Shown here in pieces: positions 7,101 to 53,166 of a DNA stretch of 64,000 nt. The position numbers were made by a program, and so were the translations under genes. Below the pieces are notes generated by a model. It had not been told where the DNA came from. It made no database searches and was given only the letters and a program-made list of their open reading frames with translations. Every line of letters starts with the position of its first letter. The first letter of the stretch is position 1. The stretch is from Engraulis encrasicolus (Eukaryota > Chordata > Actinopteri > Clupeiformes > Engraulidae). Location of the stretch: assembly GCF_034702125.1 (NCBI RefSeq), contig NC_085876.1, forward strand, positions 28,710,579-28,774,578. Direction: 5' to 3'.

Positions 7101-10100
7101 TATTCACTTTCGTGATATACTGTATGACGCAAAAGGGAAAAAAAGTCCACTTGGAGCAGGAATGTGTTGCTCCCTCTTGTTTTACTTAGACCATGTAAAA
7201 ACGTGAAAATTAGAGTAGTTCTTCCCAGGTAATTTACTTGCTTATCTAGAAAGGTCCAGTACCTAGAATCCTGCTTCCCATCCAACCCATTAACAATATG
7301 AAGTTCAGAGCAGACATCAGAGCCAGAGGTGCATCCCGTATGCATCAACTGTTACAATTTATGTCACCCATGTATTGCTCAATGAACAAAAGATGATTGC
7401 TGGATTAATTAACTAATAGAGTACACACACGCACGCACACACACACGCCCACATACAGGGACACACACAAAGGAAGACCATGGCTTTGTACCCAGAGCTT
7501 TCTTCTTCTTGCCCACTGGGTTGTCGTCGTCCTCTTTGCGGGGCACGGCCGACTCCTTGACCGTCACCCCCTGCAGGCAGGTGCGCAGTAGTGCGGAGAT
7601 GCGCGTGGTCTCCTCTCGCCTGGTGCAGTACACAATGATGGAGTCCAGAGCACCAAACCGCTCCCCCTTCAACAGACACACCAGGGCCTATGGAGAAGAG
7701 AAGAGAAGAGAAGAGAAGAGAAGAGAAGAGAAGAGAAGAGAAGAGAAGAGAAGAGAAGAGAAGAGAAGAGAAGAGAAGAGAAGAGAAGAGGAGAGAAGAG
7801 GAGAGAAGAGGAGAGAAGAGAAGAGGAGAGGAGAGGAGAGGAGAGGAGGAGGGTGGGTGGGAGTGAGGGTGAATGAGAGGAGAGGAGGAGGGAAGGATGG
7901 GGGACAATCCTTCATCAATCCTATGGCACATTTTTAGTCCCATATATGTCAACTAGCCGAGAGTATGAGGAGGTTTTATTATCCAAATGTTATCCATCCA
8001 AAAAATCAACATGTCTCATAATGTTAGTGTCATAACAACCACATTGCTGAAATTATCTTTTTGTGAGATGTGTGAGTATTGCAGCCAGGGCTCTAAATAA
8101 ACTTTTAATAAGCCAAAATGGCTTGAAGTTGTTAATCTTACTAGCCAAACAAGCACTCACTATTGGGTCAAAGTGGCTGCCAAGCTTTCTTTTCTACAAG
8201 CCAAACTGAAATTTCACCAACATTTGGGCTTACATTGCCCATGGGGACCCCATTTCGAGTCCAGCCGGGGTCATTTCCCGGCCCTGCCCCATCTCTCTCT
8301 CCCAATCATTTCCTGTCTACTCTCACACTGTCCTGTAATAATAAAGGCCAAAAAGCCCCCAAAAAATACTTTTAAAAAAAAGAAATTTCACCACATCTGG
8401 CCAGTTGGTGGGTAATTCAGAGGCCTGGGGGTGCAGCGTAGCGTACCTGGTCCTTGTCCCGGTCCATGGAGACGGAGAGCTGGAGGTTGTGTGGCACGGC
8501 GGCCGAGCGCACGGCGATGCCCTCCTGGTCGCTGATGTTCAGGTGGTGGGCGATGTCCAGCGCGGTGGAGAGGGTGGCCGTGGCCGTCAGACCCAGCAGA
8601 CAACGCACACCCAGACGGTCACGCAGCACCTACACGGAACAAAGACGATTGTCATGGTTAGAGAGAGAGAGAGAGAGAGAGAGAGAGAGAGAGAGAGAGA
8701 GAGAGAGAGAGAGAGAGACCGAGAGAGAGAGAGAGAGAGAGAGAGAGAGAGAGAGAGAGAGAGAGAGAGAGAGAGAGAGAGAGAGAGATTGTGTGCCAAA
8801 ACAAATGAATGAGGTAGTCGAGACGGGAAAGGGAGACAGAGAGAGAGAGAGAGAGAGAGAGAGCAAGGCCAGGTCAGGCCAGACCAGCCCAGGGACAAAG
8901 ACATTGTTTTTCTAAATTCCATTTTTGGCGTAATGGTCCAAAAATGCCACGTTAGAGGGGTGTGGTGCGCTCCCTCCTCCCTTTAATAGGTCTCCAACCT
9001 CAGCTAAAACAACACCACATAAGCAGCATGGTAAAAACTGGACTACAATTGAAGCCGGCGTCATACCTGTGACATAACAGTGTCATAATGGTGTCAAAAC
9101 GGTGTCATCATGACACAGTCATCATAAACATGTCAATTTCAAAAGTTTTATGGTCATGAAAATTTGACATTGTTAGGGCTGTCTTTAACATAACCGAATT
9201 TCACTTAATGACAAAGGTCATAAAATGTTTATGACACTGACATGTTTATGATACATGTATGACTGCGTTATGACACTGTTATGGGTACTGTTATGTTAAG
9301 TATGACGCTGTTGTCAAATTAAGTGTTACCGAGGATTGTCATGGTTAAAAACAACGGTTGCCATTGGAGGTATTATAAAAAGGCTCCATACAGAAGATTT
9401 GTTATTTGAAAGTGCCTGAAAAATAAATATGTAGCTAAAGGATTTTTAAATATTTGCTGCGATACATCCGATTTATTGTTGTGAGAATGCTTGTCCCAAT
9501 GTGCAACTCCCCTATGCAGAAAGTACAAAGGGGATATTGATGGAAATGCAAATCAAAACTACTATTTTATTTTGAAAACACATTGGTTCTGGCCTCTGGT
9601 GTGCACGTACACATATGCATATTTCAAAACTCTGGTTTTTAAAATATTACATTCAGGGAGCTAAAATGCGCCTGTCACCATGGAGGTTTTATTTGTATCC
9701 ACAAGTCATATTCACACGTAAACGGATGATAGATAGATAGATAGATACATAGCATTTAAAAATATCTATCTATTTAAAAATATCCGCTCTTAAAATATCA
9801 GCACCTTAATGTCTTAATTCAGCCTCACCTTGCAGAGTCTGAGGTAGCAGGGTCTGAAGTTGTGGGACCACTCCGAGACGCAGTGGGCCTCGTCAATACA
9901 GGCGAAGGCCACCGGGGGGAGCTGGTCAGCAGGGGGCAGGCAGCCGGAGCCGGAGTGGCCCCCGCCCACCAGGGCCTCGGGGGACAGCAGCAGCACATGC
10001 ACCTGGCCCGCCTTCACCTGAAACACACAGTTGCTCAGCTGTTCAGTCAACGCAAAACATACACAACACCTGGCCTGCCTTCACCTGAAACACACAGTTG

Positions 10101-53166: not shown

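Follow-up and report, generated by a model that had tools for sequence, protein, structure and literature searches.

Tandem, probably mirage-like copies of exon boundaries in several genes of the anchovy Engraulis encrasicolus

Introduction

Mirages are tandem repeats that span exon-intron boundaries, named in the amphioxus Adh3 gene and described also in globin, troponin C and PGBD5 genes (PMC3087553, PMC3902484). According to the sections of these papers covered here, unit size is 10-72 bp for Adh3 and roughly 150-160 bp for the globins, mirage length changes between haplotypes and in somatic cells, and splicing is apparently undisturbed by their presence; the authors tie them to intron gain (PMC3087553, PMC3902484). 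Two further systems are close. Tandem duplication of a segment carrying AGGT is the standard model of intron gain, as in ATP2A1 and a potato RdRp gene, where the duplicate carries both AG and GT and can yield new splice sites (PMC4974935). AGGT sites within tandem repeats can also serve as either splice site, as do the dual-specific sites of the polyubiquitin gene UBC, whose repeats are coding and used (PMC10809524).

Our search of the literature returned no report of mirages in a vertebrate among the matches listed, most subscription journals lying outside its coverage, and the portion of the anchovy genome paper covered here (PMC13403563) does not mention exon edges.

Here we describe copying of exon edges in several unrelated genes, on several chromosomes, of Engraulis encrasicolus, the European anchovy. 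As in amphioxus, a minisatellite-like unit spans the exon-intron boundary, both in the splice-site cases of the 64-kb stretch of DNA analysed as a whole (hereafter the window) and in a second locus (C6), as well as at 7 of 12 affected donors of a third (SMG1); both 5' and 3' splice sites are affected, and many copies carry AG or GT. Unlike the amphioxus cases, the host is a bony fish, and some SMG1 copies comprise the exon end only. In contrast to intron gain by tandem duplication, which produces a new intron, the copies lie inside existing introns. One of them, next to recql4 exon 13, has an AG|GT inside a tandem repeat (CAG|GTGAAG) much like the UBC sites; those are used, and the anchovy copies are candidate sites. 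By analogy, these arrays may represent a vertebrate member of a class that we have hitherto found reported from a few lancelet genes.

Results

Genes and other repeats in the window

Exon models were built before any edge was tested for copies, and comprise:

33049 to 971 or below, minus strand: recql4, 20 exons, 1482 codons, open without a stop
34407-40994, plus strand: hgh1
53166-41920, minus strand: tssk5-like kinase gene

Exons 6-16 of recql4 are identical to the E. encrasicolus RECQL4 database protein at 572 of 572 residues, and HGH1 read from the window is 100% identical to the protein of the same species over 386 residues. For the tssk5-like kinase, the joints were compared with Coilia grayii, to which the first 320 residues align without gaps; no E. 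encrasicolus tssk5 protein stood among the matches listed (best 120 of 142), and this gene (41920-53166) may be absent or broken in the annotation. An earlier, sequence-only reading of the window had numbered recql4 exons 8, 11 and 13 just as our gene model does.

The window also holds repeats of other kinds. A near-perfect foldback inverted repeat of 1.3 kb (5828-7124, 93.9%) is probably a transposable element, and two 835-bp copies of a foldback element in opposite orientation (1-835 and 14501-15335) are 99.4% identical, which suggests recent transposition. SINE-like repeats occupy recql4 introns at 10574-10884, 20656-20773 and 27890-28158; similar sequence was called as exon in two stretches from elsewhere in the genome (C2 and C6). 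Coding exon 18 of recql4 contains a perfect 33-bp tandem repeat (2547-2613), and tandem repeats outside the three genes lie at 57684-57845 (78 bp) and 59061-59133 (36 bp).

Copies of exon edges in recql4, hgh1 and tssk5

Local direct repeats were located without regard to genes, and each edge named in the sequence-only reading was then searched for copies. All seven of these edges (recql4 exons 8, 11 and 13; tssk5 exon 3 on both sides and exon 5; the hgh1 stop) do have copies nearby, and an eighth, the acceptor of recql4 exon 7, was absent from that reading. The exons and their arrays are:

27679-27838, minus strand: recql4 exon 7, acceptor edge copied
28304..28343, minus strand: single copy of the acceptor edge of recql4 exon 7, with a SINE-like element between copy and exon
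18631..18762, minus strand: recql4 exon 8, acceptor edge repeated upstream
18763..23142, minus strand: degenerate array preceding recql4 exon 8, its spacings frequently 160-200 bp
11970..12106, minus strand: recql4 exon 11, donor edge repeated downstream
11792..11843, minus strand: single copy of the recql4 exon 11 end and donor, 43/52 identical, GT lost
9829..10017, minus strand: recql4 exon 13, acceptor edge repeated upstream
10018..10440, minus strand: repeats of the acceptor edge of recql4 exon 13, the first unit measuring 67 bp
40794..40994, plus strand: hgh1 last exon, with the stop codon
40973..41293, plus strand: stop region of hgh1 copied in tandem within the 3' flank
50692..50894, minus strand: tssk5-like kinase exon 3, both edges repeated
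50895..51668, minus strand: repeats of the acceptor edge of tssk5 exon 3, with CT-rich tracts
49757..50691, minus strand: repeats of the donor edge of tssk5 exon 3, with periods of 26 to 149 bp
48459..48591, minus strand: tssk5 exon 5, acceptor edge repeated upstream
48592..48894, minus strand: acceptor edge of tssk5 exon 5 in three copies, each with AG intact

Each edge has between one and nine copies, which contain up to about 55 nt of the exon end together with the splice site. They differ from their exon by about 2-30%, and the same pattern recurs on several chromosomes; tandem repeats are in general difficult to assemble, but this divergence and recurrence make an assembly artefact scarcely credible.

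The clearest of the seven cases is tssk5 exon 3. Its acceptor, ctctcag|ATCCAGCTCTATGACATGTTCC, recurs in nine edge-crossing matches, seven of them with the AG intact and eight with an exon part of at least 22 nt; its donor, CCACATAGTGCACAG|gtac, recurs in nine edge-crossing copies, seven with the GT intact. At recql4 exon 13, the near copy (10078-10118, 67 bp upstream) is identical at 40 of 41 positions and keeps its splice junction whole, while farther copies at 10331-10395 and 10396-10440 (identities 52/63 and 36/45) and a fragment at 10300-10328 have diverged more. The hgh1 flank carries one copy of the stop region and one of the part behind the stop, and the single copy of the recql4 exon 7 edge has a low exon-side score (12).

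Exon 8 of recql4 forms the end of a 4.4-kb degenerate array in which two copies cross the acceptor edge (19131-19019 and 19356-19266). The sequences TGCTGAC and GACTAAC are able to act as branch points. On the minus strand of the window, 12 of 16 TGCTGAC motifs fall within 23200-18762, where the branch-point-like GACTAAC is also found at three sites; judged by these motifs, the array units look as if they carry a branch-point-like element as well.

The sequence-only reading had duplication starting at the exon edge. This was imprecise: the edge lies inside the repeated unit, and arrays reach 8-78 nt into the exon.

Drift of the copies and their potential as splice sites

That reading had also proposed that selection holds the genic copy constant while the others drift, and the window bears this out: in the exon parts of its copies, differences are spread evenly over the three codon positions (39/229, 41/228 and 39/217). 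SMG1 copies show an uneven distribution (34/294, 20/296 and 46/294), and we take their surplus at the third position to reflect silent substitutions that the exon itself has undergone after duplication; alternatively, some of the copies may have been coding for a while.

The splice dinucleotide is retained in 21 of the 27 window copies (14/17 acceptors, 7/10 donors), counting by eye those copies that align with the edge; a script gave 22, including one gap-shifted site. Since neutral drift predicts 18.5 (standard deviation 2.3), AG and GT do not appear to have been specially kept. Among the SMG1 copies, 10 of 14 donors and 2 of 4 acceptors carry them.

Decoy or alternative splicing at the copies is possible to judge from their letters, and selection could have retained them for such a role: a scoring matrix derived from the splice sites of the window places 10 of the 17 acceptor copies and 6 of the 10 donor copies above the 95th percentile of intronic AG or GT, and two acceptor copies in tssk5 (51068 and 48672) would extend their exon open and in frame. 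We nevertheless consider retention by selection quite improbable, for AG/GT retention is no higher than drift predicts, codon 36 is a stop in all nine tssk5 donor copies, a stop or a frameshift would result at 14 of the 16 acceptor copy sites examined, and the RECQL4 database protein shows the true joints alone over exons 6-16.

Exon edges and tandem repeats within the window

The matches between edges and copies exceed chance: at a score of at least 30 they were obtained for 3 of 62 edges, as against 0 of 1240 swapped-intron comparisons and 0 of 602 exon-interior positions. Whether edges are preferred over other intronic sites is a separate matter, and a clear edge excess was not found within the window alone, either by position-level or by array tests. 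In a strict test (score >=36), a local repeat crosses 3 of 62 edges, compared with 5.0% of 2282 intronic positions; because this test masks microsatellites, it misses the recql4 exon 8, recql4 exon 11 and tssk5 exon 3 acceptor cases. A looser test gave 4 of 62 edges and 180 of 1646 intronic positions. Four of eight arrays touch an edge where 1.8 were expected (P = 0.08), with P ranging from 0.02 to 0.57 under other masking and threshold settings. Degenerate tandem duplications that are wholly intronic, away from edges, lie at 15930-16382 and 36559-36786.

These counts favour the explanation that duplication has no preference for edges at all: in a genome rich in tandem duplications (simple and low-complexity repeats make up 11.15% of it according to the portion of PMC13403563 covered here), those that happen to overlap exon ends would stay visible longer, the exon copy being conserved.

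Exon edges elsewhere in the genome

From the same genome, 29 stretches of 10 kb were read, 21 of them spaced (L001-L021, in which 27,001 of 210,000 bases are N), and exons, those of the window included, were matched to RefSeq, PDB or Pfam. The spaced stretches also speak for an absence of edge preference: 2.4% of 6020 position tests fall in a local repeat anyway, and edges predicted ab initio (38 of 80 exon candidates kept, those of low score or low complexity dropped) have copies in 8 of 74 cases compared with 257 of 4096 other positions, which is no clear excess. Two of these eight are the two edges of one recognised SMG1 exon, flanked by copies on both sides as is tssk5 exon 3, and the other six are predictions only. 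A gene in L015 likewise has a predicted exon with copies on both sides; it was left out of the recognised genes because Pfam did not recognise it.

After copies had been seen in L003, SMG1 was extended to 50 kb, so that the additional 40 kb are an unseen part of a gene already known to be affected. Its 54 candidate exons mostly match human SMG1 in PDB among the matches listed (54 of 56 candidates were kept, one SINE-like and one inside an array being dropped; two low-complexity candidates were left out of the PDB query, in which the first candidate exon had no match). Copies were found at 8 of 108 edges, compared with 32 of 2200 positions inside introns (P = 4e-4, Fisher test). Among the eight is an edge of the first exon, which had no database match; a loose test gave 13 of 108 edges and 65 of 2134 positions (P = 6e-5). 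The unseen 40 kb contain 13 arrays; 12 of them reach an exon edge, compared with 4.8 expected (P = 5e-5), or with 1.65 expected if the exon overlap is limited to 60 nt (P = 2e-10). Sixteen arrays were counted in the full 50 kb. Fourteen touch an edge, 12 of these 14 at donors, and the exon overlaps measure 8 to 60 nt, compared with a median of 88 nt under random placement.

C6 and C19 were taken as two further loci since each had recognisable exons in its first stretch; the repeat density per stretch was already known at that point, the details of their arrays were not. Pfam recognised a ZIP transporter, a TPR gene and a peptidase M3 gene in C6, and a WD40 gene and a kinase gene in C19; genes among this set are presumably SGTA, THOP1 and WDR20. 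The gene spans of C6 contain eight arrays, five of which touch an edge (2.3 expected, P = 0.05); these five belong to the peptidase M3 and ZIP genes. Three of the eight have an exon overlap of at most 60 nt (0.66 expected), the other two overlaps being 66 and 78 nt. The two C19 genes have no edge array, the single cluster at that locus lying outside gene spans. Clusters containing or lying inside an exon were excluded from the counts, as were C6 and C19 clusters outside gene spans. One array in C6 (L007, 3148-5000), which spans a whole exon with TPR similarity, was not counted.

Taken together, the unseen loci (the 40 kb of SMG1 and C6; C19 contributes nothing to the total) have 17 of 21 arrays at an edge, compared with 7.0 expected (P = 1e-5). 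This weighs against an absence of edge preference, since P is still 0.003 if the odds of an array at an edge are doubled and 0.03 if they are tripled. Where overlap is limited to 60 nt, a bound taken from the 'terminal 20-60 bases' of the sequence-only reading and applied after SMG1 had been seen, the count is 15 of 21, compared with 2.3 expected (P = 1e-10), and P is 2e-5 even at tripled odds. We therefore regard the absence of any edge preference as rather unlikely.

Copies of splice sites occur in five of the nine genes with recognised exons (recql4, tssk5, SMG1, peptidase M3 and ZIP), and were not found in the other four of the nine examined: hgh1, where it is the stop that is copied, the TPR gene, the WD40 gene and the second kinase gene.

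The sequence-only reading had proposed a genome-wide habit of such duplication. The window by itself (P = 0.08) does not bear this out, but the unseen SMG1 and C6 loci do, and boundary copying is probably a habit of this genome. Visibility bias accounts for part of the edge excess, since an array whose exon copy is conserved can be recognised for longer.

Simple repeats and the extent of the copied segment

At several SMG1 donors a CA or GT run follows the splice site, with the copy directly behind the run, and a simple repeat lies within 80 nt of 7 of the 12 SMG1 donors that have copies, compared with 7 of the 42 that have none. Masked sequence amounts to a fraction of 0.172 near edges and 0.097 inside introns of at least 400 nt. 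The association shows for SMG1 donors only: it is absent at both SMG1 acceptor cases, and for the window and SMG1 combined, simple repeats accompany 10 of 21 edges with copies and 49 of 149 without (P = 0.14). Simple repeats at 12769-13045, 7693-7845, 35383-35463 and 37758-37782 end some 0-13 nt from acceptors (recql4 exons 10 and 15; hgh1 exons 2 and 4), the last of them having been read by eye.

The recognised similarity at the 12 SMG1 donor cases crosses the splice site in seven and ends 0-7 nt before it in five, so that these five are copies of the exon end only. Such an ending would be expected if exon ends of splicing intermediates were reverse transcribed into the intron, as would one SMG1 copy that matches the last 60 nt of its exon at 59 positions, ends at the exon's last base and stands behind a CA run. 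Copying by way of RNA is nonetheless very improbable in our estimation, given that the copy continues into the intron at the seven other SMG1 donors and at the donors affected in the window; because these copies run into intron sequence, their source was unspliced DNA or RNA.

Discussion

We consider it moderately probable that the arrays are mirage-like, that is, that boundary stretches have been tandem-duplicated repeatedly in several genes of this anchovy, with selection acting on the genic copy and the others drifting. Our confidence in this interpretation is slightly lowered because five of the SMG1 donor cases stop before the splice site.

Mirage-like arrays of this kind would begin with the tandem duplication of a short boundary stretch at DNA replication or repair, for which slippage or template switching is our best guess. 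Simple-sequence tracts near splice sites, which are CA/GT runs downstream of donors and CT runs upstream of acceptors, may pair with short matches inside the exon end. One copy would remain genic and be held by selection, and the intronic copies would be free to drift. The intron would thereby gain spare splice sites, mostly harmless since the true sites win, which might occasionally become new exons or introns. The exon finder trained here called exon-like segments within arrays, such as L029 (C6) 7091-7277 and SMG1 joined minus-strand coordinates 40867-40949.

A further proposal, which we put forward tentatively and as something short of probable, is that exon edges act as genuine hotspots for small tandem duplications, where splice signals and adjacent simple repeats are fragile during transcription or replication, so that the genome continually makes spare splice sites and exon-like segments. 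Were this the case, the anchovy would provide a natural experiment in how exons and introns are born.

Should anchovies in general share the habit, the phenomenon would be widened from a few lancelet genes to bony fish, and wrong gene models, in which exons are called inside arrays, would be explained. Anchovies would then offer a vertebrate in which to watch tandem duplication as a source of new splice sites, exons and introns, with copies whose ages span from 98% identical to the exon (59/60) down to faint.
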